64,000 nt of DNA from Komagataeibacter xylinus (GTDB lineage: Bacteria; Pseudomonadota; Alphaproteobacteria; Acetobacterales; Acetobacteraceae). The notes beneath the pieces were generated by a model. The model made no database searches and was not told the DNA's origin. It saw only the letters and a program-made list of their open reading frames with translations. The position numbers were made by a program, and so were the translations under genes. Shown here one piece after another: positions 7,731 to 25,706 of the stretch (its first letter is position 1; each line of letters starts with the position of its first letter). The stretch is from positions 1 to 64,000 of the forward strand of contig NZ_JARWSK010000001.1 of assembly GCF_031081985.1 (NCBI RefSeq). The letters are read 5' to 3'.

Positions 7731-7741
7731 CGCGCAAAGTA

Positions 7742-7780
7742 ATCCCGAACGGACAGATAGCGTCTGTCCTCATTCGGGAT
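7742..7780. terminator. Hairpin between convergent GST and MFS genes
   Basis: ATCCCGAACGGACAGA pairs with TCTGTCCTCATTCGGGAT around a short loop (7742-7780), just after the GST stop and before the end of the opposite MFS gene. There is no long T run, so it may be a weak or bidirectional terminator. Confidence 0.55.
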
Positions 7781-7837
7781 ACCCGGATATTTCCAGAAGG
7801 GAGATGAAAGCAGGCATTCGTGGCGGGCAATATCATT

Positions 7838-8992: not shown

Positions 8993-9064
8993 GCCCTCTG
9001 CTATACAGGCTGATTTTTTATCCGGCGCTCGACAGGATGCCATAAACTGTCGAAAATATGCCAG

Positions 9065-9865: not shown

Positions 9866-9884
9866 TCTGATTATCAGTCTGTTT

Positions 9885-9906
9885 AAGAACGAAAGATTTC
9901 GTTCTT
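9885..9906 (+). terminator. Hairpin after the AraC gene
   Basis: AAGAACGAAA and TTTCGTTCTT form a perfect 10-bp stem with a two-base loop 20 bases after the AraC stop. It lacks a long downstream T run. Sequence from 9907 to 10221 is A+T-rich and holds no gene I can support. Confidence 0.55.
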
Positions 9907-10221
9907 CGTCGAGGATATTTGGCCGCGAGGCGATAAGTCCGACCGGCTGCTCCCGCCTCATATCAGATATTCAATGAGTATTGCCTTCTTGCGTAAAGCG
10001 GTCATTGAAGAGCTGACTATCCTGTCATTATTCGTCAGATCTGCCTACTGTGACAGATAGATCAGACCAAGCTCTCTACAAAAGCCACCAATGGCCCTTT
10101 ACATTTCATCTAATGTATGATTGATTGCGTCTATATACTCCTTAAGTGAAGGTAGGGAGCGACAAACACAATCAAAGCAGGTTAGCTGCAATCTATCCTG
10201 CTGAAAACTGAGGAACTCATT

Positions 10222-10656
10222 ATGCAAGTAACGCTCACACTTAATGACCTTAACGCACTTTCTGACATTGCGCGACAGGAAATTCAGGAACTTCTGTTTC
10301 CTAAAGGCGCAGGGAAGCCTGAAGGTTACGAAAATTATGATTGGGACAACGTTTATGATCTGACGGAGAAGCAGATTGAAAGACTAGTAGCTGGTCTTGG
10401 AGAATCGTCACGTAATGCATTAAAGGTGATTGCAAGTAAAGGTCCTGCAATTGATGCCAGGGATCTGGATGAGACAGGAATTTCCAGCTATGGTTCTTTT
10501 CAGTCCGGTATTCACCGTCGTCTAAGAAAAATTACAGGAGATGAAGATGCCTGCTTATTCACTTTTGACGATTGGAATGAAGACGAAGATGGAATCGGTC
10601 ACTTTGTTGTTTCTTTGAAGACCTTTGATTCTTTAAAAAAATATTTTGAGGAATAA
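10222..10656 (+). CDS. Hypothetical acidic protein, A+T-rich
   Basis: 144 residues, not recognised. The sequence is acidic, mainly helical in its first half (LTLNDLNALSDIARQEIQELLFPK) and ends in an Asp/Glu-rich stretch (FDDWNEDEDGIGHFVVSL). No signal peptide, membrane segment or metal motif is visible. Codon use is clearly more A/T-rich than in neighbouring genes, suggesting recent transfer, possibly from a mobile element. ATG 10222 is preceded by GAGGAA. It stands alone between the AraC gene and the ampC pseudogene. Confidence 0.6.
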   Translation: MQVTLTLNDLNALSDIARQEIQELLFPKGAGKPEGYENYDWDNVYDLTEKQIERLVAGLGESSRNALKVIASKGPAIDARDLDETGISSYGSFQSGIHRRLRKITGDEDACLFTFDDWNEDEDGIGHFVVSLKTFDSLKKYFEE

Positions 10657-10718
10657 TGGTAATATTTTGAAATTGAGGTTAATATAATCTCAAAAAACTG
10701 TAAGGTGCATTACATTAA

Positions 10719-10760
10719 AAATGTCCGGTTTTTCATTATGTCTAGTGAGACCGGACATTT
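10719..10760. repeat. Perfect inverted repeat around CCGGACATT word
   Basis: AAATGTCCGGT (10719-10729) is exactly reversed as ACCGGACATTT (10750-10760) with a 20-base loop. A tighter version, GTCCG-AAA-CCGGAC followed by ATT, occurs near 12206-12222, on the other side of the ampC pseudogene. It may be a terminator for the 10222 gene or a remnant of element ends. The rest of 10761-11018 contains no gene I can see. Confidence 0.5.
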
Positions 10761-11018
10761 CCGTTCGTCTGTTACAAACCGCCTGTCGATTAAACGTAAA
10801 TAGGGCAGCGGACAGGCAGCAATCGCCTCATTTCAGACGCCCAGAAGGCTGCTCGACCATTCGGTAAGCGGACCTATGATCACAAGTAATCAGTTATAAT
10901 TGCTGTGTAGTTTCATGTCTGGGCTATGACCTGTGATACCGGGAGCACCACAATTTTACTCCAGATCGCTCTATATTCTCACGAACCCACGAGAGGAATC
11001 CAAGTGTGGAGCGTATAG

Positions 11019-12167
11019 ATGAATAAGCGGTCGTACCTTGTGGCGCTCTCCATTGCCATGATCGCGTCAAATATTTCGCCTGCAAAAGCTGACAGTTTTG
11101 CTGAACAAACGCGCGATGCGTTCCAACCCGTAATGGAGGAATACGATATACCCGGCCTTGTTGTCGGCATTACCCGCAACGGCAAACATGAATTTTATGC
11201 CGCTGGCGTAGCATCACGAGCCGATAACCGTCCTGCCACACCTGATACTCTGTTTGAACTCGGCTCAATAAGCAAAATTTTCAATGTAACGCTTGCAGCA
11301 TTGGCCGAGGAACGCGGTGAACTCAGCCTTAATGACACAGTGGCACATCATGTCTGTGCAGACGCCTGCTCGATAGGCAATCGGCTGACCCTCATGGATC
11401 TGGCAACGCACCATTCGGGAGGACTGCCCTTGCAGGTGCCAGACAACATAACCGACGTCGATGGGCTGGTGACCTAGCTCAAGAACTGGCACCCGCCGGA
11501 ACCGGGAGCAAGAAGCTATTCCAACATCAGCATCGGAATGCTCGGCTACATCACCGGCAAGACCATGAACTCGAACTATAAGCAGGTCGTTCAAGACCTG
11601 CTTTTTCCGATGTTCGGGCTGCAGCATACCTGGATTGACGTACCAGAGAGCAAAATGGCCCAGTACGCCTGGGGATATGACCGAAAGACCAACGCACCAA
11701 TCCGCATGACCCTTGGCGTTTTGGCAGATGAAGCCTACGGCGTAAAATCGAGCGCCCGGGACATGCTGAAGGTTCTGGATGTGGAGATGGGGCAGGGGAC
11801 AGATTCGGAAGAATTGCGTAAGGCAGTCAGGAGAACCCAAGAAGGACAGTACAAAACAGCGTTCTTTACGCAGGATATGATCTGGGAGCAATACACCTGG
11901 CCCACTGAGCTGCAGAAGATGATACTGGGCAATGGCTATGACTTTATTATGAAGCCACAACCAGAACAGAAGTTGAGCCCGCCGCTCTCCCCCCAGAAAA
12001 ACGTTTTCCTGAACAAGACTGGATCAACGAACGGCTTTGGCGGCTATATTGCGATTCTGCCCAGTGAAAATATCGGCATAGTTGTCCTGGCGAACAAAAA
12101 CTATCCGAATGAAGCCCGGGTGAAGGCGGTCTACTCGCTCATCGAGTCACTGAATTCCAAGCCTTAG
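11019..12167 (+). pseudogene. ampC: Class C beta-lactamase (ampC) with one in-frame amber codon
   Basis: One frame runs 382 codons and is broken only by TAG at 11475-11477 (codon 153). A signal peptide (SYLVALSIAMIASNISPAKA) and all class C active-site motifs are present: S83-I-S-K86 (SxxK), Y167-S-N169 (YxN) and K333-T-G. The amber sits where relatives have Trp (GLVT-stop-LKNWHPPEPG), so a single TGG to TAG change explains it. The product before the stop lacks the YxN and KTG motifs and cannot be an active lactamase, but a single reversion or suppression would restore it. Confidence 0.88.
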
Positions 12168-12629
12168 TTGCCATCGGCAAAAATGTTTGAGTTTGAAGAC
12201 AGGTGTCCGAAACCGGACATTCCATTGCCCCCACATTGCCGTCATCTGACGATATGGACATGTGAAGCGTTTATGTGGCCAGTCCTACGAAGACTTTGCT
12301 TTGATTGCTATCCGTCGCTGTCCTACAGCTACTTGCAAAGGCTATCTGTTTGGGAACGCGCTGTGGAATCAGGGCCACCACGATATTCAAGGAGCGCATT
12401 CCGGACGCAGCGTCAACTTCGACCAGCAAAGAGATAACGGAACGATACATTCTGCCTGTGAACCTATTGGCTTCGGATCGAACGGATGTGGGTCTGGTCG
12501 GATCGCTTTAAACGGTGAGTGATAGAACTATGTGAACTTAACTCTTTGGACAGGACATTAACGCGACGAATTGGCGTGATGATCTGCACGGAGCACGCAA
12601 CCATAATCTGTATCGATCATTATTGCACG
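12168..12629. other. Intergenic stretch without a supported gene
   Basis: About 460 bases between the ampC pseudogene and the MocR promoter. Several short frames are open on both strands, but none resembles a known family or has a convincing ribosome site. The CCGGACATT repeat occurs near 12206-12222. Confidence 0.5.
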
Positions 12630-12680
12630 GATTGTATGGTATATGGTCGAATGGAATCTCATCGAATGTATGGAAATTCC
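12630..12680 (+). promoter_or_regulatory. Probable MocR operator before the MocR gene
   Basis: GATTGTATGGT at 12630-12640 recurs exactly before the first cluster gene (14233-14243). A second TGTATGG follows at about 12667-12673. MocR regulators commonly bind pairs of direct repeats, so autoregulation is plausible. Confidence 0.5.
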
Positions 12681-12685
12681 ATCCC

Positions 12686-14089
12686 ATGTCAGCATACCCG
12701 TATCTCGCCCACTGGAAAGAAGAGATCAGCCGCAGCCCGAACGCGATTTACATGACGCTGGCCGATGCCCTGGCACTTTCCATCCGCAAGGGCGACCTGA
12801 GGGAAGGCGACAGGCTACCACCACAGCGCATGATCGCAGAATATCTTGGCACCAATCTGACGACCGTGACCCGGGCATTTACCGAGGCCCGCCGACGCGG
12901 TCTGATTGACGCAACGGTCGGGCGAGGCACCTTCGTCCGTGTCGGTGCGGGGGAAAGCCACTGGCGCCATACCGGTCCAGCCGTAGTTGACCTGACCATG
13001 AACCTGCCGCCCATCCCGCAGGAACCGCCGCTTCAGCGGATTATCCAGAGCGACATCGCAGCCATCCTGAAGCAGCAGGATCTGAACAGCCTGATGTCCT
13101 ACCGGGTGACGGGTGGCACACAGGAAGAACGCCAGCTTGGCGCGAAATGGATCGCGCCCATTATCGGTCAGCGGCGAACGGAGGAAATCCTTGTCTCGCC
13201 TGGTGCCCAGAGCGCTCTGGCGGCCATCGTCAGCACCCATACCCAGCCGGGCGATATGATTGTTACCGACCGTATTGCCTATCCCGGCATCCGGACCATC
13301 GCGGCGCAGTTTGACCTTATTCTGGTTGGTGTGGATAGCGACATGGAAGGCATGATGCCGGAGCAGTTGGATCGGGTCTGCGCCGAGCATCATCCCCGGC
13401 TGCTCTACTGCATTCCGACCATCCACAATCCCACCACGGCCACGATGTCCCTGCAACGACGCAAGGACATCCTGAAGGTCGCCCAGCGCCACCATCTGCA
13501 TATCGCCGAGGATGATCCCTACAGCCTGCTGATGGACAATCCGCTGCCAGCGCTGGCGGCTCTCGACCATAGCCGTGTCAGCTATGTCGCCACGCTCGCC
13601 AAGACGCTCAGCCCGGGCCTACGCACGGCCTATGTTGCCCTGCCCAATGCGGACATGACCCGACGGGTCGCGGCGGCCATCCGGGCCATTGCGCTCACCA
13701 ATGCCGGCCTGCTCAGCGCGCTCACGGCGCGATGGATGCAGACAGGGCAGGCGCATACAATCCTGCACGCCATCCAGAAAGAACTGCGCCTGCGCCAGTC
13801 CATTGCCCACAGGGTGCTGGGGGAGGGGCATTGCATGAACCCCGACGGGCCGCATGTGTGGCTGAAACTGCCGGACTGGTGGGGCAGTGCGGATTTTGTG
13901 GCCTATGCCCGCAGGCGAGGCCTCGCGCTGGTGCCCAGCACCGTTTTCACCATCAGCGGCGAGCCGCCGCAGCGGGCGCGCATTGCATTGGGCAGCGCAC
14001 CGGATGCTGCAAGCCTTGAGGAATCCCTGCATGGCGTGCTGTCGGTGTTGCAGCACAAGCGCTCACCCGGCTTCGCCGATATTGTGTGA
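12686..14089 (+). CDS. MocR-type regulator (GntR HTH plus aminotransferase-like domain)
   Basis: 467 residues. The first 80 form a GntR winged helix (YMTLADALALSIRKGDLREGDRLPPQRMIAEYLGTNLTTVTRAF). The rest is a fold-type I aminotransferase-like domain: the PLP-binding lysine is expected in YVATLAKTLSPGLRTAY, and HNPTTATMSLQRR and AEDDPYSLL are the usual neighbours. MocR proteins sense amino compounds or PLP adducts. It lies just upstream of the Nit1C cluster on the same strand; a shared 11-bp word suggests that it controls the cluster, replacing the sigma-54 regulator NitA known from Pseudomonas. ATG 12686 is chosen to start the winged-helix domain. Confidence 0.9.
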   Translation: MSAYPYLAHWKEEISRSPNAIYMTLADALALSIRKGDLREGDRLPPQRMIAEYLGTNLTTVTRAFTEARRRGLIDATVGRGTFVRVGAGESHWRHTGPAVVDLTMNLPPIPQEPPLQRIIQSDIAAILKQQDLNSLMSYRVTGGTQEERQLGAKWIAPIIGQRRTEEILVSPGAQSALAAIVSTHTQPGDMIVTDRIAYPGIRTIAAQFDLILVGVDSDMEGMMPEQLDRVCAEHHPRLLYCIPTIHNPTTATMSLQRRKDILKVAQRHHLHIAEDDPYSLLMDNPLPALAALDHSRVSYVATLAKTLSPGLRTAYVALPNADMTRRVAAAIRAIALTNAGLLSALTARWMQTGQAHTILHAIQKELRLRQSIAHRVLGEGHCMNPDGPHVWLKLPDWWGSADFVAYARRRGLALVPSTVFTISGEPPQRARIALGSAPDAASLEESLHGVLSVLQHKRSPGFADIV

Positions 14090-14225
14090 CCTGCGCGCAG
14101 TGTCTGGAATCGATGGGAACATCTGATTCCGGGGCACGTCATGCGGGCACATGGAAAAACAAAAAGGCACTTCATTCACGACTGCGTGATTATAAAATCA
14201 CGCTAAAACAGATCCTTATGGTTGC

Positions 14226-14275
14226 CCCTTACGATTGTATGGTTGTCGTATATTTTTTGTATGTCTCTGTCTTGG
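14226..14275 (+). promoter_or_regulatory. Promoter/operator region of the Nit1C cluster
   Basis: GATTGTATGGT (14233-14243) repeats the word in front of the MocR gene, and a T-rich stretch with a further TTGTATG (14258-14264) follows. The leader of about 150 bases to the first start codon at 14430 contains no gene. Confidence 0.5.
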
Positions 14276-14429
14276 CAGGATGGCGGCATGTAATCTGATT
14301 TGAGCCGTTTGTACCTTTTTCATAAAGCATACAATATTTTGGCTCTCTGCCATCCCGTGCCACGTTTGCCTCGGCAACGCGGTCAGTCCCGGCTCTCTGC
14401 CGGAGACCGCAGCACACGGGAGACATACC

Positions 14430-14912
14430 ATGCCGAAAGTTGAACACGCTCCGTACAAAGACGGCGATTGCTTCGTCAATTATGAAAACAAGGTCTTTGA
14501 GGACGTCAAAGCCCAGCCCGGCGAAAAAGCCCTCATCACCTTCCACACCGTCGCCAATGAAGGCTCGGTCGGGTTCGTCAACCTGCTGCAGGCCACCCGC
14601 CTGATCCGCAAAGGATTTGAAACCTCGGTGCTGCTGTATGGCCCGGGCGTGACCCTTGGTGTGCAGCGCGGCTTTCCCCGCTTGGGCGATGAGGCCTTTC
14701 CGGGCCACATGAACTGCAACAAGCAGATCGTGAAAATCCTTGAGGAAGGCGGAAAAGTCTATGCCTGCCGCTTCGCGCTCCAGGCCCTCTACGGCTACGG
14801 CGAGCAGAACCTGATCCCCGGCATCACGCCGATCAACCCGCAGGACGTACTCGACATCATCCTGCTGGCCCGGCGCGACAACGCCTTCATCCTCAATACC
14901 TGGACCCTCTGA
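14430..14912 (+). CDS. nitB: MSMEG_0572/Sll0783 family nitrogen-starvation response protein
   Basis: 160 residues with a DsrE-like fold ([41 protein letters not shown]) and a conserved [15 protein letters not shown] segment containing a single Cys. It matches the MSMEG_0572/Sll0783 family, the first gene of Nit1C clusters; in Synechocystis the sll0783 gene responds to nitrogen starvation. The biochemical role is unknown. It heads a tightly packed cluster of nine genes. The symbol follows Pseudomonas nit1C naming and is tentative. Confidence 0.9.
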
Positions 14913-14936
14913 AGGCCGAAGGGAGGACCGCACGCC

Positions 14937-15911
14937 ATGTCCCGTATCGTTCGCGCCGCAGCCATCCAGATCAGCCCCGTCCTTGGTGACGATGGTCTGG
15001 GAACTGCCCGGAAAGTCTGTCAGGCCATCCGCGAGGCCGCCGAAAAAGGCGTGAAACTGGCGGTCTTTCCCGAAACCTTTGTGCCGTACTACCCCTATTT
15101 CTCGTTCATCCAGCCGGCTTTCCGCTTTGGTGGCGAGCATCTGGAACTCTACGAGCGCGCTGTCGTCATTCCCGGTCCGGTCACCGACATGGTGGCCGAG
15201 GCCGCGCGCCAGACCGGCATGGTCGTGGTGCTCGGCGTAAACGAGCGCGATTTCGGCACGCTCTACAACACGCAGATCATCTTCGACGCCACGGGTGAAA
15301 TCCTGCTCAAACGCCGCAAGATCACGCCCACCTATCATGAACGCATGGTCTGGGGGCAGGGCGATGGTTCCGGGCTGAAAGTAGTGGAAAGCGCAGCCGG
15401 TCGCATTGGCGCACTGGCCTGCTGGGAGCATTACAATCCGCTCGCCCGCTACGCGCTGATGACCCAGCACGAGGAAATCCATTGCGCCCAGTTTCCGGGC
15501 TCGTTGGTCGGGCAGATCTTTGCCGACCAGATGGAAGTCACCATCCGGCACCACGCGCTGGAATCCGGCTGCTTTGTGGTGAACGCCACGGGTTGGCTGA
15601 CGGAAGAGCAGATCAAGGAAATAGCCCGCGACCCTGCGCTGGAAGGGCCGCTGCGGGGTGGGTGCTTCACGGCGATCGTCTCGCCTGAAGGGAAGCTGCT
15701 CGGCACACCGCTGACGGAAGGCGAGGGGATGGTGATTGCCGATCTCGACTTCGCCCTGATTACCAAGCGCAAGCGGATGATGGATTCCGTGGGGCATTAC
15801 GCACGGCCCGAACTGCTCAGCCTGCTTCAGGACCGGCGACCCGCCCGCACTGTTCATTACGTTGGGGAAGCCAATCCGGTTCCCACATCTACAGATGAGG
15901 CTGCGTCATGA
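14937..15911 (+). CDS. nitC: Nit6803-type nitrilase
   Basis: 324 residues, carbon-nitrogen hydrolase superfamily. The catalytic triad is visible as E46 ([13 protein letters not shown]), K128 ([16 protein letters not shown]) and C162 ([14 protein letters not shown]). It matches the Nit6803 (Sll0784) branch that hydrolyses nitriles to carboxylates plus ammonia. In Pseudomonas species the NitC homologue is required for growth on cyanide, acting on 2-hydroxynitriles. It begins 24 bases after the first gene and ends overlapping the radical SAM start by four bases. Confidence 0.93.
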
Positions 15912-17014
15912 CCATTCCGACGCTCGGTACACTTTCTGGTCGCAAGCTCGTTACCGATCTACAGTCCTTCGGACTGCAGATCGGTGAGCAGACCGGCGGC
16001 ATCGCCCGCAAGGGAGGCGCCGGTCCTTCGGATCACAAGACGATTACCATTGCAGGCCAGACCGTCATGGTCCCGGTCTATACATCTGGCGCGCGGCATT
16101 CACCATTTCAGGCCAGCCCGCCGGACCAGCACGGGGCCAGCACGCTGCTACGCGATGGGCAGACACTGGGCACCATCCATTTCCCAGCCGCCCCGCGCTT
16201 TTATGGCCTGAGCACGGCGGATGGTATTCCCTACTGGAAGATCGCCCTGCTGCATGGTCGTGACACGCTGGCGACCACGGTGCACCAGACCTGCATCCGC
16301 TATGCCGACCGGCGCACATCCTGCCAGTTCTGCGCCATCGGCCAGTCGCTGGAGGCCGATCGCACCATTGCCTACAAGACGCCAGCACAACTGGCCGAGG
16401 TCGCCAAGGCCGCCGTGGAACTCGACGGCGTGCGCGACATGGTGCTGACCACCGGCACGCCCAACGTGGTGGACCGGGGTGCAGCCGTGCTGGCGGAATC
16501 AGCCCGTGCCATCCGGACGGCTGTGGATCTGCCGCTTCAGGTGCAGTGCGAACCGCCGCGCGATCACGACTGGTTCCAGCGCCTGCGCGACGCCGGGGCC
16601 GACAGCCTGGGTATGCATCTCGAAGCCGCAACACAGGCGGTGCGTGAGAAGATCATGCCCGGCAAGGCCACGGTCAGCGTCGATCGTTATATGGACGCTT
16701 TTGCCAGCGCCGTGCCGATCTTCGGGCGCGGACAGGTCAATACCTACATTCTGGCAGGTCTTGGCGACAGCGCTGGAGACATTCTGGCCTTGGCCGAACG
16801 GCTGATCGCACTTGGGGTCTATCCCTTCGTGGTGCCGTTCGTGCCCATTTCCGGCACACCGCTGGAAAATCATGCGCCGCCTTCGGCCGATTTCATGAAG
16901 TCCGTGCTCGCACCACTCGGGCGGATGTTGCGCGAGGCGAACATGAAATCCACCGACATCCGCGCCGGGTGTGGCCGGTGTGGCGCCTGTTCCTCCCTTT
17001 CGGCGTACGAATAA
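15908..17014 (+). CDS. nitD: MSMEG_0568 family radical SAM protein
   Basis: 368 residues. The iron-sulfur motif is unusual, C129-x9-C139-x2-C142 ([18 protein letters not shown]), not the common CX3CX2C. A C-terminal C355-GR-C358-GA-C361 could bind a second cluster or metal. A TIM-barrel-like middle ([33 protein letters not shown]) resembles the lipoyl/biotin-synthase-like radical SAM fold. Family context is the Nit1C cluster; the reaction is unknown. Its stop shares one base with the next start codon. Confidence 0.92.
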
Positions 17015-17577
17015 TGACCACGATCCTCGAAGGCGTGGACGACCGCCCGTTCATCCCTACGGAATATGTCGTGCGTCTGGCCCGCACGCCGTGGGAACGG
17101 GCGGGCTACCATGCGCTGCGCCGCGACGTGTTCTGTACCGAACAGCAGGTCTTTGCGGATGATGACCGGGACGCAATCGACGCGGTTGCCATTCCCATCA
17201 TCGCGGCGTGCTGCATGGCGGGTATGCCGGACCGGGTGGTGGGCGCGGTGCGCATCCATGAAGCCGAACCCGGCGTCTGGCGCGGTTCCCGTCTGGTCGT
17301 CCATGAAGACCATCGCAAACTGGGGCGGATCGGCGCGGAACTCATCCGCATGGCGGTCAGCACGGCACACGGGCTTGGGGCCACGCGCTTCCTGGCCCAG
17401 GTACAGGAACAGAACGTGCTGTTCTTCCGCCGCCTGCACTGGACAAGCCTTGGAGCCATGACCCTGCATGGGCTGCCCCATCACGACATGCAGGCCGACC
17501 TCTCACGCTATCCGGCGCATGGCCAGGACCAGACCTGGCTGCTGCGCCCGCAGCCTCGTAACCGGCAGGTGGCATGA
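17014..17577 (+). CDS. nitE: MSMEG_0567/Sll0786 family GNAT N-acetyltransferase
   Basis: 187 residues with the GNAT core: RAGYHALRRDVFCTEQQVF, RLVVHEDHRKLGRIGAELIRMAV for acetyl-CoA binding and FLAQVQEQNVLFFRRLHW. It matches the Nit1C acetyltransferase. The acceptor is unknown; an amine made by other cluster enzymes is a reasonable guess. Its start overlaps the radical SAM stop by one base, and its stop overlaps the next start as ATGA. Confidence 0.9.
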   Translation: MTTILEGVDDRPFIPTEYVVRLARTPWERAGYHALRRDVFCTEQQVFADDDRDAIDAVAIPIIAACCMAGMPDRVVGAVRIHEAEPGVWRGSRLVVHEDHRKLGRIGAELIRMAVSTAHGLGATRFLAQVQEQNVLFFRRLHWTSLGAMTLHGLPHHDMQADLSRYPAHGQDQTWLLRPQPRNRQVA

Positions 17578-18548
17578 TGGCACACGAACTGACGACACTG
17601 CTGCGCACGCTTCGACACGGTCGGGCCCTTGCGGGCAAACAGGATATTGCCGAAACCGTCGCAATTCTTGGTCGTGATACAAGCGATGGTATCCGACTTG
17701 GCGATGACTGCGCCGCCATACCGGATGGCGATGGCTATCTCCTGCTGGCCAGCGAGGGGTTTCAGGACAGCTTCGTGCGCGCCATGCCGTGGTTTGCCGG
17801 GTATTGCGGCGTGATGGTCAATATCAGTGACATCGCGGCCATGGGCGGTCGCCCTGTGGCTGTAGTGGACGCGTTGTGGAGCGATACATCCGAGGCGGCT
17901 GCGTCCATTCTGACCGGTCTGCATGAAGGTGCGCGCACCTATGGCGTGCCGGTTGTCGGCGGCCATACCAACATGCGCAGCACCCATAATTCGCTGTCAG
18001 TCGCGATCCTTGGCCGTGCCCGTCATCTGCTGACCAGTTTCGATGCCCGACCGGGCGAAGTCCTGATCGCCGCCCTCGACCTGCGCGGCCGCTGGCACGA
18101 CCCGCACCCGTTCTGGGATGCCAGTTCCGCACTGTGTCATACTGAGGGGGCGGCACGCCTTCGAGATGATCTCGATCTCTTGCCCGGCATTGCCGAGGAC
18201 GGCCTGAGCCGCGCCGCCAAGGATATCAGCATGGCCGGACTGCTGGGCACCGCGCTCATGCTGGCCGAATGTTCGGGTATCGGCATGACCATCACGCTCG
18301 ATGACATTCCACGTCCCGACGATGCACCAATGGAACGCTGGCTGTCCGCATTCCCCAGCTATGGCTATCTGCTGACGGCCCGGCCCGAGGCGGCCGGGGC
18401 AATCATGGCCCGCTTTCATGGGCGGGGCATAGCGGCTTCTGTCATCGGTCAGTGTAACAGCACGCAGCGGCTGGATGTCACATGGGCGAACGAGAAGGAA
18501 ACCTTCTGGGATCTCGCCCGGATGCCGCTCATGGGGTGTGCGCCATGA
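17574..18548 (+). CDS. nitF: Sll0787 family AIR-synthase-like protein
   Basis: 324 residues of the PurM/ThiL/SelD ATP-binding superfamily. The N-terminal motif IRLGDDCAAIPDGDGYLLLASEGF and the NISDIAAMGGRPVAVVDALW segment are typical; GHTNMRS and AAKDISMAGLLGTALML follow. Relatives phosphorylate small substrates by making acyl- or phospho-intermediates with ATP. In the Nit1C cluster its substrate is unknown. ATGA overlap with the acetyltransferase stop shows tight coupling. Confidence 0.9.
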   Translation: MMAHELTTLLRTLRHGRALAGKQDIAETVAILGRDTSDGIRLGDDCAAIPDGDGYLLLASEGFQDSFVRAMPWFAGYCGVMVNISDIAAMGGRPVAVVDALWSDTSEAAASILTGLHEGARTYGVPVVGGHTNMRSTHNSLSVAILGRARHLLTSFDARPGEVLIAALDLRGRWHDPHPFWDASSALCHTEGAARLRDDLDLLPGIAEDGLSRAAKDISMAGLLGTALMLAECSGIGMTITLDDIPRPDDAPMERWLSAFPSYGYLLTARPEAAGAIMARFHGRGIAASVIGQCNSTQRLDVTWANEKETFWDLARMPLMGCAP

Positions 18549-19723
18549 GCCTCTCCATCGGCATCCTGACCCATTCCACCAATCCGCGTGGCGGCGTGGT
18601 GCATGGCATGGCGCTGGCCGAAGCCCTGTGCGACGCAGGCCACGACGCCACGCTCATCGCGCCGGATGTAACCGGGGCCGGTTTCTTCCGCACGCCCCGC
18701 TGCGCCACAAACTGTATCCCGGCCGTGCCCGAGACCGACCTGCCAACGCTGGTGGAGCGCCGCATTGGCGAGATCAGGGACGCCCTGCGTGGGCAGCATT
18801 TTGACGTGCTGCATGCGCAGGACCCGATCAGCGCCAATGCACTGGCCGAACTGGTGGAAGAGGGACGGATACCGGGCTTTGCCCGCACGGTCCACCATCT
18901 TGACCATTTCACGCACCCGGTCCTTGCCGCGCGGCAGGAACGGGGGATCAGGGCGGCGGCCAAACTGTTTACCGTCAGCACAATGTGGGAAGATGTCCTG
19001 CGCAACGACCATGGCCGCGAAGCCCCGGTCGTGGGCAACGGGGTTGATCCCGTGCGCTTTTCGCCCCTACCAACTGCGCACGATGCCGCGTTGCGGGCGC
19101 GGTATCATCTGCCTGCCGATCAGCACCTGATTCTGTCCGTGGGCGGAATCGAGCGGCGCAAGAACACGCTGCAATTGCTCGACGCATTTCTGGCCCTTCG
19201 CCGCGAGCGGCCTGATGTGCATCTGGTTGTGGCGGGCGGGGCCTCGCTGCTGGATCATTCTGCCTACCGCACCCGGTTCATGGCGCGTCTGCGCGAAAGC
19301 GGTGCGGCCGATCATGTCACCATCACCGGGCCGGTTGCGGATGAAGACATGCCTTCATTCTACCGGCAGGCGGACGTGCTGGCCTATCCATCCGTAACCG
19401 AGGGGTTCGGGCTGTGCCCGCTGGAAGCCCTGGCTTGCGGCACGCCTGTTATTGTGCCGGCAATCGCACCTTTCACGGAGCATTTTTCGGCAACGGATGC
19501 GCTGTGGTGCCAACCGGCGCACCCCGACACTTTGTTCAGAGCGTTGCGCGACGCCCTACGCGTCGAAAGCCGTGACCATTTCCGGGCCAGCGGCCCCGCA
19601 ACCGCCCGCCGTTTCGACTGGGGCAGCGTCGCCAGCCGTCACCTCCCCGCATACCGGCGTCTAGCGGCGCTGCCGCACGCTGGCATCCCTGCTTCAGGAG
19701 TTTTGTCACCATGCCCGAAATGA
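18545..19723 (+). CDS. MSMEG_0565 family glycosyltransferase
   Basis: 392 residues, GT4-type GT-B fold. The donor-binding motif is EGFGLCPLEALACGTPVIV, preceded by LSVGGIERRKNTLQLLDAF. It matches the MSMEG_0565 family found only in some Nit1C clusters (actinobacteria, cyanobacteria). Its start overlaps the AIR-synthase-like stop and its end overlaps the next gene by 13 bases. A glycosylated product or carrier is suggested, but no substrate is known. Confidence 0.9.
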   Translation: MSLSIGILTHSTNPRGGVVHGMALAEALCDAGHDATLIAPDVTGAGFFRTPRCATNCIPAVPETDLPTLVERRIGEIRDALRGQHFDVLHAQDPISANALAELVEEGRIPGFARTVHHLDHFTHPVLAARQERGIRAAAKLFTVSTMWEDVLRNDHGREAPVVGNGVDPVRFSPLPTAHDAALRARYHLPADQHLILSVGGIERRKNTLQLLDAFLALRRERPDVHLVVAGGASLLDHSAYRTRFMARLRESGAADHVTITGPVADEDMPSFYRQADVLAYPSVTEGFGLCPLEALACGTPVIVPAIAPFTEHFSATDALWCQPAHPDTLFRALRDALRVESRDHFRASGPATARRFDWGSVASRHLPAYRRLAALPHAGIPASGVLSPCPK

Positions 19724-19998
19724 CCTTTCGCGTGCGCTGGCCCGATGGGAAGGAGACTGACTGTTACTCCCCCTCGCTGGTCATAAGGGACCACTTCACG
19801 CCCGGTCAGGATTATCCGGTCCGGGAGTTTCTTGAAAAGGCGGACACCGCCCTGACGGACGCCAGCGAGCGTGTTCGCGCCCGCTACGGCTTCCCATGCA
19901 GCCGCGCCCTTGGCCAGCTTCAGACCATAAGGCAGGCCAGTGCGCCTTTTCTGAACCAGTCCGACGCGCAGGTGCGCGTCCTGTCTTTCAGTTATTGA
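19711..19998 (+). CDS. nitG: MSMEG_0570 family nitrogen-starvation response protein
   Basis: 95 residues, small soluble protein. The opening MTFRVRWPDGKETDCYSPSLVI and the RARYGFPCSRALGQL segment match the MSMEG_0570 family, always found in Nit1C clusters; function unknown. Two conserved cysteines are present. It overlaps the glycosyltransferase gene by 13 bases and is followed 17 bases later by the flavoprotein gene. Confidence 0.9.
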   Translation: MPEMTFRVRWPDGKETDCYSPSLVIRDHFTPGQDYPVREFLEKADTALTDASERVRARYGFPCSRALGQLQTIRQASAPFLNQSDAQVRVLSFSY

Positions 19999-20014
19999 GA
20001 CGAAAAGAACGACC

Positions 20015-21262
20015 ATGACACAGAACGAGAAAAGCATCCCCGTCATCATCGTGGGTGGCGGACAGGCCGGGCTCTCCATGAGCTGGTATCTCTGCCGCGA
20101 GAAGGTGGAGCACATCGTCTTTGAGGCAAAGACCGCCTGCCATTCGTGGGATGATGAGCGCTGGGACAATTTCTGCCTGGTCACACCGAACTGGCAGTGC
20201 GAACTTCCCGGTCATCCCTACAAGGGGAAAGACCCGCACGGCTTCATGGTGAAGCAGGAAATTATTGACTACGTGAAGGGATTTGTTGCCTCCTTCAACC
20301 CGCCCCTGCGTGAACACACGGCCGTCACCTCCATCACCCGCCATGAAGGTGGTGGCTATCGCGTGGTAGCAGGTGGTGAGACGTGGCACGCGAAACATGT
20401 TGTTATCGCATCCGGCGCATATCAGGACGCGGTCATCCCCGGTTATGCCAGCGGCATCGACCCCGCCATTCATCAGGTTCATTCGCAGGATTATCGCAAC
20501 GCAGCCCAGTTGCCTGAAGGCGCGGTTCTGGTCGTGGGCAGCGGCCAGTCCGGCGCGCAGATTGTCGAGGACCTGTTCCTTGAAAAACGCAAGGTCCATC
20601 TCTGTGTCGGCTCCGCCCCGCGCGTCTCGCGCTTCTACCGTGGCCGTGATGTTGTGGACTGGCTTGCGGACATGTACTTCTACGACCTGACGGTGGATAA
20701 TCACCCCCTGCGTGACGGCGCACGCGACAAGACCAATCATTATGTCACGGGCCGAAATGGCGGACATGACCTTGATCTGCGCAAGTTCGCGAAGGAAGGC
20801 GTGGGCCTGCACGGCACGTTGGAGACAATCCGTGACGAGGTGGCGCACTTCGCGCCGGATCTTGCGGAAAACCTTGATGATGCGGACAAGACCAATGCCG
20901 ACATCAAGAAATCCATTGACGCCTACATCGCCCGTGAAGGGATCACGGCTCCGACCGAAGCCCCTTATGTGCCTGTGTGGGAGCCCGATGGCAGTAACAC
21001 CCCGCTCGACCTGAAGGCTGCCGGGATCACTTCGATCCTCTGGTGCATCGGCTTCCGCCCGAACTATCGCTGGATCGACGTGCCGGTCTTCAATGGGGCC
21101 AACAAGCCGGTCTGGCATCGCGGCGTGACCGATGCGCCGGGCTTCTACTTCCTCGGCCTGCCATGGCTGCACACCTGGGGATCGGGACGGTTCTCAGGCG
21201 TTTCGCGCGATGCCGCGTGGCTGGCCAGCCAGATCACCGGCAAAGACGTGTCTGTAGCCTGA
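20015..21262 (+). CDS. nitH: MSMEG_0569 family flavin-dependent oxidoreductase
   Basis: 415 residues. Two dinucleotide-binding motifs are visible, IIVGGGQAGLSMSWYL for FAD at the N-terminus and VLVVGSGQSGAQIVEDLF near residue 170 for NAD(P)H, as in N-hydroxylating and Baeyer-Villiger-type flavin monooxygenases. The C-terminus has FLGLPWLHTWGSGRFSGVSRDA. The family belongs to Nit1C clusters. N- or C-oxygenation of a cluster intermediate is a reasonable inference. Confidence 0.92.
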   Translation: MTQNEKSIPVIIVGGGQAGLSMSWYLCREKVEHIVFEAKTACHSWDDERWDNFCLVTPNWQCELPGHPYKGKDPHGFMVKQEIIDYVKGFVASFNPPLREHTAVTSITRHEGGGYRVVAGGETWHAKHVVIASGAYQDAVIPGYASGIDPAIHQVHSQDYRNAAQLPEGAVLVVGSGQSGAQIVEDLFLEKRKVHLCVGSAPRVSRFYRGRDVVDWLADMYFYDLTVDNHPLRDGARDKTNHYVTGRNGGHDLDLRKFAKEGVGLHGTLETIRDEVAHFAPDLAENLDDADKTNADIKKSIDAYIAREGITAPTEAPYVPVWEPDGSNTPLDLKAAGITSILWCIGFRPNYRWIDVPVFNGANKPVWHRGVTDAPGFYFLGLPWLHTWGSGRFSGVSRDAAWLASQITGKDVSVA

Positions 21263-21276
21263 ACGGAGTAACCGCC

Positions 21277-23049
21277 ATGCTTCCATGGACAACATATGAG
21301 GCAATGTATGATGCGGCACGGAACCAGCCAGAACAGTTCTGGCTGGCTGCGGCGCAACGCATCACATGGAAGCAGGTACCTGTGAGCGCATGCAGGGCGC
21401 GGGCGGATGGCTGGCATGACTGGTTTCCCGACGCCACGCTTAATACCTGCCATAACGCCGTGGACCGACATGTTGAAAATGGTCGCGGTGAACAGGCAGC
21501 ATTGATCTGGCATTCCTGCGCCACAAAGGAACGGCAGGTGGTAACCTACCGGGAACTACAGGACAGGGTGGCCCGGTTTGCCGGTGGCCTGCGCGCGCTG
21601 GGGGTAGGGCAGGGCGACCGCGTCCTGATCGCCATGCCGACCATGATCGAGACGGCCATCGCCATGCTGGCCTGTGCGCGGATCGGCGCCGTGCATGTGG
21701 TGGTTTTCGCCGGTTACGCCGGGCCTGAACTGGCACGACGGATTGATGACGCAGCACCGAAGGTCATCATCATTGCCAGTTGCAGCTTTCAGGGGCAGAC
21801 GCCCATTCCATCCGCACCTGCCCTGAATGAGGCGCTGGCCAAAACGACGCACAGACCACAGGCCTGCGTGATCGTGCAGCGAGAAGCCTGTCCGGCATCG
21901 CTTCTGCCAGTGCGGGATCATGATTTTCGCACGTTGGAACAGTCCGCACCGGCAGAGCCGGTCACGCTGCGCTCCGAAGATCCCCTGTATATTCTTCACA
22001 CGTCCGGCACGACGGGGCATGCGAAAGGCATTGTGCGTGACAATGGCGGGCATGCTGTGGCCCTCGCCCTGTCCATGGAGCTGATCTATGGCTGCAAACC
22101 CGGCGATACGTTCTTCACCACATCGGACCTGGGCTGGGTGGTTGGCCATTCCTACGGCGTCTATGCGCCGCTGATCAGCGGCTGCACCAGCGTGATCGTG
22201 GAAGGCGGCGCATCGGCTTCCGCTATCCGCGCGCTTTGCCATGAGCACGAGGTGAAATGCCTGTTCACCACACCCACCCAGATGCGCCTCATGCGGCAGG
22301 AAAGCCGCAACCTGTCAGGGGCCATCCTGCCAGCACTTGCCCGCATTTTCGTGGCTGGGGAATATGCGGATCCGACATTGCTGGAGTGGGCACGATCCTA
22401 TTTTTGCAAACCCGTGGTCAATCACTGGTGGCAGACTGAAACGGGGTGGAGCATCACCGCTCATTTTTTTGGCCTGCCCGAGCGCGAGCCGGTCTCGCTC
22501 ATGAACGACATTGGGCGGCCTGCACCGGGATTTCGCCCGGAAATTGTGCCGTCCATACCCGGTGAACAGTGCGGCGAGATTGTCCTTTCGCTGCCGCTGC
22601 CGCCCGGCTGTCTGGCAGGAGTGTGGAAAGAAGGGGCGATCCATGTTCCTGCAGCTTATCTGGACGAGACCGGCCAGTATTATCGCACCTTTGACGAAGG
22701 CATGATCGAGGCTAGTCGCACCGTGCATATGCTCGGGCGTTCCGATGATGTCATCAAGGTCGCAGGACGGCGGATTTCGGGCGTGCAGATCGAAAAGATC
22801 ATCGCCACCCATCCAGCCGTTCATGCGTGTGCCGTAGTTGCAATTCCGGACGAACTGCGAGGGCAGCGACCTGTCGCTTATGTGGTTCCAGATCCCGAAG
22901 CGGAATGCGCGCCTTCTTCCGAGGAAATCGTTGCGCGGGTCAACGAAGTCCTCGGGCGCTGGATTGGCTTGAAAGAAGTCCGCTTCGTCAGGCAACTGCC
23001 GACCACCGTGTCCGGAAAGATCACGCGGAAGCGCCTGCTGGTCTCCTGA
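21277..23049 (+). CDS. PrpE/Acs-like acyl-CoA synthetase
   Basis: 590 residues, ANL superfamily. Motifs: YILHTSGTTGHAKGIVRDNGG (ATP loop), FTTSDLGWVVGHSYGVYAPL, WWQTETGW and the C-terminal catalytic lysine in TVSGKITRKRLL. These resemble propionyl-CoA synthetase more than acetyl-CoA synthetase. It starts 14 bases after the flavoprotein gene and so belongs to the cluster operon. It is not a core Nit1C member; it might activate the carboxylate released by the nitrilase, which is inference. Confidence 0.88.
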   Translation: MLPWTTYEAMYDAARNQPEQFWLAAAQRITWKQVPVSACRARADGWHDWFPDATLNTCHNAVDRHVENGRGEQAALIWHSCATKERQVVTYRELQDRVARFAGGLRALGVGQGDRVLIAMPTMIETAIAMLACARIGAVHVVVFAGYAGPELARRIDDAAPKVIIIASCSFQGQTPIPSAPALNEALAKTTHRPQACVIVQREACPASLLPVRDHDFRTLEQSAPAEPVTLRSEDPLYILHTSGTTGHAKGIVRDNGGHAVALALSMELIYGCKPGDTFFTTSDLGWVVGHSYGVYAPLISGCTSVIVEGGASASAIRALCHEHEVKCLFTTPTQMRLMRQESRNLSGAILPALARIFVAGEYADPTLLEWARSYFCKPVVNHWWQTETGWSITAHFFGLPEREPVSLMNDIGRPAPGFRPEIVPSIPGEQCGEIVLSLPLPPGCLAGVWKEGAIHVPAAYLDETGQYYRTFDEGMIEASRTVHMLGRSDDVIKVAGRRISGVQIEKIIATHPAVHACAVVAIPDELRGQRPVAYVVPDPEAECAPSSEEIVARVNEVLGRWIGLKEVRFVRQLPTTVSGKITRKRLLVS

Positions 23050-23194
23050 CGTTGGCAGTATCGTAATGGGCTGGAGGATCTTCTCGTGCCTGAACATGCG
23101 GTGTGAGCGGATCAACCGGGTCGGCTCAGGGTTTGGAATCTCTCTTTCTGCTCCTGACTGGATTTTATCCGGGGCAGAAAACATACATCCCCTA

Positions 23195-24565
23195 TCAGGC
23201 GACGCGGATCAGCTTGCGGTTGATGAACTCCTCGATGCCGAGGAAGGACAGTTCGCGGCCAAATCCCGAATTCTTGATCCCGCCAAAGGGTAGTTCAGGG
23301 GCTGCGGCCGTGGCCGTGTTGATGAACATCATGCCGGTCTCGACCGCTTCGGCCACTTGTTCCGCCCGGCCAAGGTCACGCGAGAACACGGAACCACCGA
23401 GGCCGTAAGGGGAGTCATTGGCCAGTTCGATGGCCTCATGCTCGCCTACGACCTTATGCACGACGGCAACGGGACCGAAAATCTCCTGATAGAAGACCGG
23501 ATTGTCCTTCGCCACGTTGGTCAGGATGGTCGGTTCCATGAAGAAGCCCGTCCGCTCCATCCGCTTGCCCCCGGCCACCAGCGTCGCCCCTGTCTTGACG
23601 GCTTCGTCGGTCTGCGCCAGTGCGGTGTCGAGTGCCTTCCTGCTGCTCATCGGGCCATGGGTCGTGCCTTCGGCCAGCGGGTCGCCGATGCGAAACTGTG
23701 TGATCGCCTTTTTCAGACCCGCGAGGAAGGCATCATAGACCTTCTCATGCACGATCATCCGCTTGGCCGCCGTGCAGACCTGCCCGTTATTGGCGAACCG
23801 GCCCCATGTCGCCCACTTGACCGCGAGTTCAAGGTCCGCATCATCCAGCACGATGAAGGCATCGCTGCCGCCAAGTTCCATCGTGTCCTTCTTCAGCGCC
23901 GCCCCAGCTTCGGCCGCGACCGTCTGGCCCGCACGTTCGCTGCCCGTCAGGGCGACGCCACGGATGCGGACATCCTTGATCAGTTCAGCCGACTGGTCAT
24001 TGTCGAGGAAGATGTTGGTATAGACGCCAGCAGGCGCGCCCGCATCGTGGAACAGCTTTTCAAACGCCAGCGCGCATTGCGGCACGTTGGGCGCGTGCTT
24101 GGCGATGACCACGTTGCCCGCCATCAGGTTCGGCCCCGCCACGCGGGCCAACTGGTAATAGGGGAAATTCCATGGCTCGATGCAGTAGATCAGGCCAAGC
24201 GGCTGGTTGATGATCTTTGCATGGCCTTCCTTGACCTTCAGGTGCGTGGGGGCAAGGAATTCTGCCGCACCATCGGCATAGAAGGACAGGATATCGGCGG
24301 TGATGTCGATTTCCTCCAGCGCGTCGGGCAGCGCCTTGCCCATTTCGGTCGCGATCAGGCGCGCATGGGCCACCCGGTCGCGGCGCAGCAGGTCGGCGGC
24401 CTTTGACATGATGACCTTGCGGGCCGCGATGTCGCGCTTTTTCCAGTCGGTCTTCCACACATGATCCGCGCGATCCACAATCGCCTTCATCTGCGCGTCG
24501 GTATGCAGTTCAAACGTGCGTTCCACGGTTTCCGTGGTCGGGTTGAGGGTCTGGTAAAAACTCAT
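23195..24565 (-). CDS. NAD(P)-dependent aldehyde dehydrogenase (Sad/YneI type)
   Basis: 456 residues, ALDH superfamily. Motifs: IEPWNFPYYQLAR, FTGSE-equivalent ALTGSERAGQ, catalytic Glu in MELGGSDAFIVLDDAD and nucleophile Cys in NNGQVCTAAKR. It is closest to E. coli Sad (YneI), a succinate-semialdehyde dehydrogenase that also takes other small aldehydes. It lies 17 bases downstream of the Old Yellow Enzyme gene and is probably in its operon. A paralogue lies at 52583. ATG 24565 follows AGGGAAATG. Confidence 0.9.
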   Translation of the reverse strand: MSFYQTLNPTTETVERTFELHTDAQMKAIVDRADHVWKTDWKKRDIAARKVIMSKAADLLRRDRVAHARLIATEMGKALPDALEEIDITADILSFYADGAAEFLAPTHLKVKEGHAKIINQPLGLIYCIEPWNFPYYQLARVAGPNLMAGNVVIAKHAPNVPQCALAFEKLFHDAGAPAGVYTNIFLDNDQSAELIKDVRIRGVALTGSERAGQTVAAEAGAALKKDTMELGGSDAFIVLDDADLELAVKWATWGRFANNGQVCTAAKRMIVHEKVYDAFLAGLKKAITQFRIGDPLAEGTTHGPMSSRKALDTALAQTDEAVKTGATLVAGGKRMERTGFFMEPTILTNVAKDNPVFYQEIFGPVAVVHKVVGEHEAIELANDSPYGLGGSVFSRDLGRAEQVAEAVETGMMFINTATAAAPELPFGGIKNSGFGRELSFLGIEEFINRKLIRVA

Positions 24566-24581
24566 GGGTACATTTCCCTGT

Positions 24582-25706
24582 TTATTGATTATGGAAAGGG
24601 TAGTCGGTGTAGCCATGCGCGCCGCCGCCATACATCGTTGCCGGGTCCAGCGGATTGAGCGGCCAGCCCTGTTCCAGCCGCGCGGGCAGGTCCGGATTGG
24701 CGATGAACTTCCGGCCAAAGCCGATCATGTCCGCCCATCCATGGCCCAGCACATGCTGTGCCTTGTGCAGGTCGTAGCGGCCCGCGCACAGGATGCGGCC
24801 GCCAAAGATGTCGCGCACGCTGGCGCGGAAGGCGTCCGGCATTTCGGGTGCATTGTCCCAGTCGGCCTCGGCCAGCGAGACATAGGCGATGCCTGCCTCG
24901 GCCAGCACGCGCACGGCTGCGGTGTAGGTCTCTGCCGGATTGTCCTCCAGCAGGCCGAGATAGACGCGTTCTTCCGTGGTCGTGCTGAACAGCGGGGAAA
25001 ACCGCACGCCCATTCTGTCGGGCGTGACGACGGCGGCGACGGCCTCCACCACTTCGTGCAGGAAGCGCAGGCGGTTGGACAGGCTGCCGCCATAGGCATC
25101 GGTGCGGAAATTGGTCCGTTCGGATAGGAACTGGTTGATCAGGTAGCCATTGGCCGCGTGGATCTCCACCCCATCGAACCCGGCGGACAGCGCGTTGCGC
25201 GCCGCCTGCGCATACATCTCCACCAGTTCGTGGATTTCAGGAATAGACAGTGCGCGTGGCATGTCGGGTGGCACCAGTTTTCCCGTGCCCGGCCCCGTGG
25301 GGATGAATACGTTGACATCTGTTGCCGCAACCGCCGACGGAGCGATCGGGGCCTCATGACCGGGCTGCAATGCGCGGTGGGACACGCGGCCGACATGCCA
25401 TAACTGCGCAAAGATGGGCCGCCGCTTTGCGTGTACCGCGTCAGTGACCAGTTTCCAGCCCGCGACCTGTTCAGGGGAGTAGATGCCCGGTGTCCAGGCA
25501 TAGCCCTGCCCGCGGGGTTCGATCTGCGTGCCTTCGGTAATCAGGAAACCCGCCTGCGTGCGCTGTGCGTAATATTCGGCCATCAGCGCATTGGGAATAT
25601 CGCCGGGCTGGGTGCTGCGGCAGCGTGTCAGAGGTGGCAGGAAGATCCGGTTTTCCAGCGACAGGTCGCCCAGCCGCACAGGTCCGAATAAAGAAGATGA
25701 AGACAT
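24582..25706 (-). CDS. Old Yellow Enzyme family alkene reductase (NemA-like)
   Basis: 374 residues, FMN-dependent TIM barrel. Visible: FLPPLTRCRSTQPGDIPN, AQLWHVGRVSH, the H-x2-N substrate pair in VEIHAANGYLINQFLS, and NFRTDAYGGSLSNRLRF. Such enzymes reduce activated C=C bonds in enals, nitroesters and maleimides using NADPH. The gene diverges from an HxlR regulator with an inverted repeat between them, and the ALDH downstream could take the aldehyde product further. Confidence 0.92.
   Translation of the reverse strand: MSSSSLFGPVRLGDLSLENRIFLPPLTRCRSTQPGDIPNALMAEYYAQRTQAGFLITEGTQIEPRGQGYAWTPGIYSPEQVAGWKLVTDAVHAKRRPIFAQLWHVGRVSHRALQPGHEAPIAPSAVAATDVNVFIPTGPGTGKLVPPDMPRALSIPEIHELVEMYAQAARNALSAGFDGVEIHAANGYLINQFLSERTNFRTDAYGGSLSNRLRFLHEVVEAVAAVVTPDRMGVRFSPLFSTTTEERVYLGLLEDNPAETYTAAVRVLAEAGIAYVSLAEADWDNAPEMPDAFRASVRDIFGGRILCAGRYDLHKAQHVLGHGWADMIGFGRKFIANPDLPARLEQGWPLNPLDPATMYGGGAHGYTDYPFHNQ

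Follow-up and report, generated by a model that had tools for sequence, protein, structure and literature searches.

Nit1C gene clusters were described in 2005, and the long-standing question of their pathway product can now be put to the test. In the portion of that account covered here, nothing outside Nit1C is said to be conserved between the species then known (PMC1199592). In Pseudomonas, nit1C is preceded by the divergent gene of a sigma-54 activator, NitA, and the nitrilase NitC hydrolyses a cyanohydrin formed from cyanide, according to excerpts of PMC11049912. In excerpts of two papers on P. pseudoalcaligenes, nit1C assimilates cyanide and a gene for a MocR-type regulator belongs to the cio cluster (PMC8567248, PMC10138600). 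The four open-licence papers found to mention both Nit1C and MocR (PMC11049912, PMC5333837, PMC8567248, PMC10138600) speak, in the sections covered, of this cio cluster, and the available main text of PMC5320631 (supplement not included) contains no word starting with "nitril". Here we describe a Nit1C cluster with an upstream mocR gene and a terminal acyl-CoA ligase gene at positions 12686–23049 of a 64,000-nucleotide stretch of DNA from Komagataeibacter xylinus (NZ_JARWSK010000001.1, positions 1 to 64,000), referred to as the window. The pairing with MocR is general in the proteobacteria that we sampled; in addition there is a regulator swap specific to the lineage, and a ligase is added. 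In the open-licence literature, supplements and subscription papers excluded, we found no mention of MocR as a neighbour of Nit1C or of a PrpE or LnmK partner, and as far as these searches go the pairing is unreported.

The Nit1C cluster of the window

All core families of the Nit1C of PMC1199592 and of nit1C from P. pseudoalcaligenes CECT5344 are present in the window. In profile searches the eight genes, contiguous on the + strand at 14430–21262, all scored above the curated NCBIfam cut-offs, which bears out the family assignments of the initial annotation. They encode, in this order, an MSMEG_0572/Sll0783 family protein (14430–14912; TIGR04044, 269.9 bits against a cut-off of 109.85), a Nit6803 family nitrilase (14937–15911; TIGR04048, 570.9 against 502.6), an MSMEG_0568 family radical SAM enzyme (15908–17014; TIGR04043, 586.8 against 303.7), an MSMEG_0567/Sll0786 GNAT (17014–17577; TIGR04045, 232.7 against 68.45), an sll0787 AIR synthase-like protein (17574–18548; TIGR04049, 429.9 against 321.3), an MSMEG_0565 family glycosyltransferase (18545–19723; TIGR04047, 444.9 against 259.85), an MSMEG_0570 family protein (19711–19998; TIGR04042, 133.1 against 79.85) and an MSMEG_0569 family flavin-dependent oxidoreductase (20015–21262; TIGR04046, 665.6 against 498.35). 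The glycosyltransferase gene stands ahead of the MSMEG_0570 gene, as is described for Nit1C of Burkholderia and Rubrivivax in the part of PMC1199592 covered.

Judged from the ends of the open reading frames (ORFs), neighbouring core genes overlap by up to 13 bases or are separated by up to 24. The sole long gap, of 340 bases, separates MSMEG_0572 from mocR (12686–14089, +), which encodes a protein of 467 amino acids with a GntR-type helix-turn-helix (HTH) and an aminotransferase-like domain. The ligase gene (21277–23049, +; 590 amino acids) starts 14 bases past the core, and profile search and tree identify its product as a PrpE-like AMP-forming ligase, a Nit1C-linked paralogue. The coordinates given in the initial annotation were correct, with the ATG of mocR at 12686, the ATG of the ligase gene at 21277 and its stop codon ending at 23049. 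Unlike Pseudomonas nit1C, the cluster thus has a co-directional mocR upstream, and unlike known Nit1C it has an added PrpE-like ligase and lies in a block that is found on plasmids of relatives.

MocR is the usual partner of Nit1C in proteobacteria

For the neighbourhood counts, loci with identical MSMEG_0572 DNA were taken once, which left 133 of 141 loci. Of the relatives returned by the scan of genomes, at least 587, we retained the best 80, namely 40 from proteobacteria, 38 from cyanobacteria, one from a planctomycete and one without a phylum. MocR is the usual partner of Nit1C in the proteobacteria sampled: its gene is no more than 1 kb away in 84 of the 94 distinct loci from proteobacteria, comprising 34 of 35 loci from Acetobacteraceae (L055, at the end of a contig, being scored from a partial match) and 50 of 59 others, a class in which L171, with no phylum named, is also counted. 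For the rest of these others, mocR was farther away in four and none was seen within the stretches examined in five. None of the 38 cyanobacterial loci has an adjacent mocR, four of them ending too near to tell.

The radical SAM gene scored over the cut-off in 33 of 299 family genomes. With the window's genome set aside, mocR adjoins MSMEG_0572 in 31 of 32 family loci, including the partial L055, and in the 32nd (G277) a MocR gene of the same clade lies about 6.1 kb upstream. MSMEG_0572 was over the cut-off in 10 of 385 genomes of the class and 16 of 398 of the phylum (the window's genome is in both sets and two others are shared). In the outgroup, mocR is divergent and adjacent in 21 of 22 loci; the exception, L082, has no adjacent mocR and a divergent gene for a sigma-54 activator with PAS domains, resembling the Pseudomonas NitA layout as given in the covered part of PMC11049912. 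The scan for such activators covered the upstream genes of L082 and L189, and only L082 was positive. Divergent mocR genes also stand at Nit1C on a Klebsiella plasmid and a Caballeronia plasmid.

The presence of MocR at most proteobacterial loci runs counter to the 2005 statement that nothing is conserved outside Nit1C. It also reverses the framing of the initial annotation, in which MocR had locally replaced NitA: MocR is the common case, and the single outgroup locus of 22 without it, L082, is the one with a sigma-54 activator. The neighbour of Nit1C in the window is likewise a MocR, not the divergent sigma-54 activator of NitA-controlled nit1C. A substitution of MocR for NitA peculiar to acetic acid bacteria can therefore be dismissed given the prevalence of MocR across the sample, and the neighbourhood counts rule out that MocR and ligase are chance neighbours. 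That both are real partners of Nit1C, as had been proposed, is supported by the frequency of MocR and by the finding that the close ligase homologues are all located at Nit1C. Judging from the sequences, what is distinctive here is the exchange of one MocR for another, not of NitA for MocR.

Two MocR clades

Both PF00392 (GntR HTH) and PF00155 (fold-type I aminotransferase) matched the regulator of the window above their cut-offs, which places it in the MocR subfamily. The best NCBIfam model was that of EhuR (NF052286), at 365.7–365.9 bits; the curated cut-off is 480 and membership in EhuR was rejected. The ectoine regulators EhuR and EnuR have the same domain plan, and the EhuR model, like several other MocR models, matches all 34 regulators scanned. 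Unlike EhuR, the regulator of the window scores below that cut-off and by its position belongs to Nit1C.

An alignment of 34 of 52 regulators revealed that N248, D276, Y279, K306 and R432 are invariant in all 34. By analogy with aminotransferases and GabR we take K306 to be the lysine that binds pyridoxal phosphate (PLP), R432 the carboxylate arginine and the other invariant pocket positions cofactor contacts. Because the presumed PLP lysine and the rest of the pocket are kept throughout, the PLP-type switch suggested in the initial annotation is plausible.

In a tree of 81 regulators, 27 divergent MocRs form one clade (100/97) and 26 Acetobacteraceae MocRs another (100/99), and paralogues from other places in the genomes join each of them. 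A single MocR origin for all Nit1C loci was rejected in a topology test (p-AU, approximately unbiased test, 0.003), for which the groups had been defined by gene orientation ahead of tree building. Furthermore, in a tree from the concatenation of four core proteins, loci with the co-directional type of MocR (co-type) form one clade (98/96), with L062 as sister (100/100). L062, from genome G178, is an Acetobacteraceae locus with a divergent-type MocR. This core tree covers loci that have all four genes, without L041, L042, L043, L049, L067 and L084, and L045 and L052 were assigned to the co-type by hand; the MocR of L045 falls in the Acetobacteraceae clade, but its gene orientation is reversed. 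The two clades, the rejected constraint and a core clade whose sister has the other MocR are most simply explained by a single replacement of the usual MocR by another in the Acetobacteraceae lineage.

Operator-like sites

When 13 of the mocR-MSMEG_0572 gaps were aligned, TTGTATG repeats and an imperfect palindrome became apparent. In the window, the putative MocR operator repeats identified by this alignment and by motif counts are ATTGTATG at 14234–14241 (+), TTGTATG at 14257–14263 (+), 22 bases after the first, and an inverted copy, CATACAA, at 14328–14334 (-). A further ATTGTATG, at 12631–12638 (+), is a putative MocR site before mocR itself, its TTGTATG beginning 54 bases ahead of the ATG. 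The palindrome TTCACGACTGCGTGATT (TTCACGA-CTG-CGTGATT, 14175–14191) is distinct from these repeats. It is recognisable in 12 of the 13 gaps (not in L051), with base changes in some and the arms mostly kept, and is maybe the site of a second regulator.

TTGTATG occurs 31 times in 17 co-directional gaps (0.6 expected), 13 of which have at least one site, and 21 times upstream of mocR in 24 stretches from co-directional loci (1.0 expected), with at least one in 18. In 52 non-redundant divergent gaps, ATTGA(C/T/A)(T/C)G is present 154 times (2.9 expected) and in 48 gaps, and word counts found ATTGACTG in 27 of these gaps against 0.6 expected. Same-strand sites 11–13 bases apart, the commonest spacing, make up 21 of 106 successive pairs of ATTGA(C/T/A)(T/C)G. 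In the 38 cyanobacterial upstream stretches both motifs are near expectation (5 against 2.8 and 1 against 2.3), and neither was found at the sigma-54 locus L082 or at the planctomycete locus L174. The gaps thus contain repeats that resemble operators; ATTGTATG predominates here and ATTGA(C/T/A)(T/C)G at other loci, and the two distributions partly overlap.

The genome of the window (3.53 Mb) has a single TTGTATG-N3-40-TTGTATG pair, at 14235–14263. Six genomes together have six such pairs, all of them located upstream of MSMEG_0572; G215 has none, and the reversed control gave none. Eight Rhizobium and Methyloversatilis stretches in which MocR is not just upstream have two to five ATTGA(C/T/A)(T/C)G sites each upstream of MSMEG_0572. 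They include L183, L189, L191 and L205, where a MocR may act from elsewhere. A conserved MocR with readable operator-like sites offers a route to the inducer of Nit1C.

The ligase and the slot after the core

The best models for the ligase were those of propionate--CoA ligase, at 526.1 bits against a cut-off of 955 (NF007815) and 492.6 against 827.4 (TIGR02316). By its sequence it is thus predicted to be PrpE-like and, by the curated cut-off, not PrpE. It has GWVVGH, WWQTE, AGE and a C-terminal GKI-R. Among 22 ligases at other loci, GWVVGH and WWQTE are present in all, AGE in 21 (the exception is a fragment, L035) and GKI-R within the last 30 residues in 18. GWVVGH, AGE and WWQTE match the nearest PDB sequence, 5gxd. 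The roles of these pocket motifs and of the C-terminal GK lysine are presumed.

A ligase homologue at E 1e-120 was found in 172 of 299 family genomes. The 19 homologues with at least 59% identity are all located at Nit1C; the others listed have at most 50% identity, among them those of G249, G179, G217 and G181, which are also at Nit1C. The Nit1C copy of G281 is interrupted. In the ligase tree, from which L038, L041, L042, L043, L049 and L064 were left out, 17 ligases from Nit1C loci of Acetobacteraceae fall into one group (98/97) that includes a single additional row. A single origin that includes the Klebsiella ligase had an AU p of 0.07, the Klebsiella protein being shorter (499 amino acids) and on a long branch.

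Elsewhere the same slot is taken by another enzyme. Ten tail proteins encoded after the core were scanned, and those of Rhizobium (L189), Azospirillum (L169), a Rhodobacterales strain (L140) and Caballeronia (L221) scored over the cut-off for the Pnap_2097/LnmK family (TIGR04098/TIGR04099). The Klebsiella tail protein is AMP-binding and PrpE-like, and that of L033 is of an outer-membrane assembly type; the tail ORFs of L209, L187, L077 and L154, some of which may not be genes, had no profile match. By tblastn the slot could be resolved in 80 proteobacterial loci, of which 26 have a PrpE-like protein, 25 an LnmK-type protein (e.g. also in Methyloversatilis), none both and 29 neither. On the Caballeronia zhejiangensis plasmid p2 (L221), a methylmalonyl-CoA mutase gene directly follows the LnmK-type gene.

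LnmK converts methylmalonyl-CoA to a propionyl thioester, and activation of free acids is not, to our knowledge, an expected activity of LnmK-family proteins. LnmK differs from the ligase of the window in protein family, and functional equivalence would mean, by analogy, that both may yield short acyl thioesters of the propionyl type. That two unrelated enzyme families fill one slot suggests that the Nit1C product carries an acyl group. Since LnmK-family proteins occupy the slot elsewhere, a role of the ligase in supplying an acyl donor is favoured. The speculation in the initial annotation that it activates the acid derived from the nitrile is not supported over this.

Occurrence on plasmids

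The block 12606–23065 (+) is common to plasmids of acetic acid bacteria, e.g. as positions 607–11066 of the query (window 12000–24800) in K. medellinensis. With this query, 457 plasmid records had some match and 21 matched over at least 80% in one place. The 20 records listed are all from Komagataeibacter (K. xylinus, K. medellinensis, K. nataicola, K. europaeus, K. saccharivorans, K. oboediens) or Acetobacter (A. ascendens, A. oryzoeni, A. pasteurianus), at 84.0–93.9% identity over 79–97% of the query. Eight of them, from Komagataeibacter, have 89–94% DNA identity, which fits the earlier labelling of the DNA as that of an acetic acid bacterium. Transposase or integrase genes are found near the block in six of seven plasmid stretches read. 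Plasmid pB of K. xylinus CGMCC 17276 and the window both run on into aldehyde dehydrogenase and alkene reductase genes, and for 24 kb further right plasmid matches are in pieces only (none of 122 records over 80%). These data suggest that the Nit1C block is mobile and of plasmid type in acetic acid bacteria.

K. oboediens and A. oryzoeni are represented by two plasmid records each. Two genomes of the same genus, G1047 and G1038, have two mocR copies of at least 96% identity within one genome, in line with the two block-carrying plasmid records of K. oboediens. In Klebsiella pneumoniae (L218, NZ_CP034124.1), Nit1C, a divergent mocR and a gene for an AMP-binding protein are located on a large IncFIB/IncHI1B plasmid. 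Plasmid records matching the first three core genes number 534, of which 374 are from Klebsiella and 30 from Escherichia.

Possible role of the cluster

We consider it probable on balance that the window carries a mobile Nit1C operon with a PrpE-like ligase, controlled by the upstream MocR, in which the ligase supplies an acyl donor. The eight core genes and the ligase gene would most likely be cotranscribed from the mocR-MSMEG_0572 gap. MocR would hold PLP and bind the ATTGTATG repeats within this gap as well as upstream of its own gene, and would switch upon formation of an adduct between PLP and an amine or amino acid; the inducer would most likely be a nitrile, or else an amino compound derived from cyanide. 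The Nit1C enzymes would hydrolyse a nitrile and modify the product, and the ligase would provide the GNAT with a short acyl-CoA as donor, probably of the propionyl type in view of the LnmK-family protein that fills this slot elsewhere. The observations behind this are gene content, the kept linkage, two MocR clades, enriched gap motifs, Nit1C-linked ligases and the plasmids of relatives, and the MocR-type switches of Pseudomonas described below serve as precedents. A wider version can be put forward only tentatively: proteobacterial Nit1C may be biosynthetic, with a FeeM-like GNAT adding a propionyl-type group whose donor comes from a PrpE-like or an LnmK enzyme, and MocRs that sense PLP adducts may have been recruited on two occasions, their operators sharing the form ATTGNN(T/C)G, the whole being wired to a bd-type oxidase in some acetic acid bacteria.

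Several points weigh against the operon as proposed. Many of the loci are close relatives, and the counts are not counts of independent events. Cyanobacterial loci have the Nit1C core with neither MocR nor ligase, and the core chemistry can therefore do without both. In the Rhizobium leguminosarum group (L183, L189, L191, L205) there is no mocR in the stretch examined, a distant copy not having been looked for. The motif expectations were derived from mononucleotide shuffles, a lenient standard. Nor is there a clean split of motifs between the two MocR clades: TTGTATG also turns up 14 times, with 2.0 expected, in the divergent gaps, 9 of the 52 having it, including L069 and L080; the gaps of L062, L069, L080 and L171 have no ATTGA(C/T/A)(T/C)G, which for L062 means a divergent-type MocR without the matching motif; and TTGTATG is absent from the co-type gaps L058, L061 and L063, with only TTGTACG in L056. 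The substrate of the ligase is predicted from motifs alone, and neither slot enzyme was found in two co-type loci (L048, L060), four divergent-type Acetobacteraceae loci and 23 of 48 others. Finally, the invariant Arg432, in its presumed role, suits an effector bearing a carboxylate better than cyanide itself.

That last point bears on a possible but rather doubtful alternative, a cyanide-tolerance island in which a PLP adduct of cyanide would be the signal for MocR to switch Nit1C together with a cyanide-insensitive type of bd oxidase. The genes cydAB lie directly past the ligase gene in K. medellinensis, K. europaeus and K. oboediens pKOB1 and 4 kb past it in A. ascendens, i.e. in four of the seven plasmid stretches read from acetic acid bacteria, and cydA is nearby in the family loci (of 32) L038, L040, L041, L042, L051 and, through L125, G277. 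In L051 and L125, cydA is divergent from a mocR of the same clade, and one TTGTATG faces each start. There are also precedents in Pseudomonas: besides the cio-cluster MocR and cyanide assimilation by nit1C in P. pseudoalcaligenes, a MocR mutant of this organism is said, as unpublished data in the part of PMC8567248 covered, to have constitutive cio-cluster proteins and nitrilase Nit4, and MpaR is tied to cyanide-dependent expression of the ccoN4 oxidase in P. aeruginosa in excerpts of PMC10790758. By these descriptions (PMC8567248, PMC10138600, PMC10790758), both are MocR-type switches connected with a nitrilase or a terminal oxidase and cyanide, and by analogy a cyanide-related signal fits them and the oxidase linkage. 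However, three of the seven plasmid stretches lack cydAB at this place, no cydA match was found in the 64 kb of the window or in 22 outgroup and 80 named loci (many stretches short; two of the 80 repeat Acetobacteraceae loci), and the ligase-cydA gap of K. medellinensis has no TTGTATG. The cyanide-insensitive type was guessed from length (477 amino acids) and DUF2474, and Arg432 points to an amino-acid-like effector.

Two further readings were weighed. A catabolic pathway, in which the nitrilase turns a nitrile into a carboxylic acid that the ligase then converts to its CoA ester for breakdown or further modification, is in our view unlikely. It would explain why nitrilase and ligase are in one operon, a ligase for small acids would suit a small nitrile, and the Pseudomonas NitC does act on a cyanide-derived cyanohydrin (covered part of PMC11049912). 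Against this, the LnmK-family protein of 25 of the 80 resolved loci, never found together with PrpE, is presumably not an acid-activating enzyme, and release of ammonia needs no ligase, in line with the 29 loci that have neither. Far less credible still is that MocR controls only itself or something else and owes its position to inherited hitch-hiking. The site upstream of mocR and the four Rhizobium loci with no nearby mocR would agree with it, but two different MocR clades are found at this position, the motifs are enriched in the gap before MSMEG_0572, the motif pair is unique in the genome and the motif is kept where MocR is not just upstream.

Other features of the core proteins and the flanks

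The GNAT has a sub-threshold match to the FeeM Pfam family (24.1 against 27). For the MSMEG_0570 protein, searches of PDB and Pfam gave no usable match. The MSMEG_0572 protein of the window matches the DsrE/DsrF-like family PF02635 with 17.6 bits (E 0.0044), below the gathering cut-off of 22.7; weak DsrE matches (E up to 10, the best 0.00053) were obtained for 35 of a set of 42 members. Against PDB it had no significant match, the DsrE/DsrF-like entry 3mc3 being at E 0.95. Cys113 is invariant in the aligned MSMEG_0572 proteins (30 of 55 available), and a sulfur-handling function is possible.

A scan for promoters gave 2 against 2.7 expected and one for terminators 10 against 7.0 expected. Upstream of the block, a PF00144 beta-lactamase-family protein is spread over two ORFs, at 11019–11477 and 11538–12167 (profile positions 2–116 and 152–320), which suggests that this gene is probably broken. 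An ORF of 144 amino acids at 10222–10656, with no Pfam match, has a G+C content at third codon positions of 0.32, against 0.52–0.79 in the other listed ORFs, and was perhaps recently acquired.

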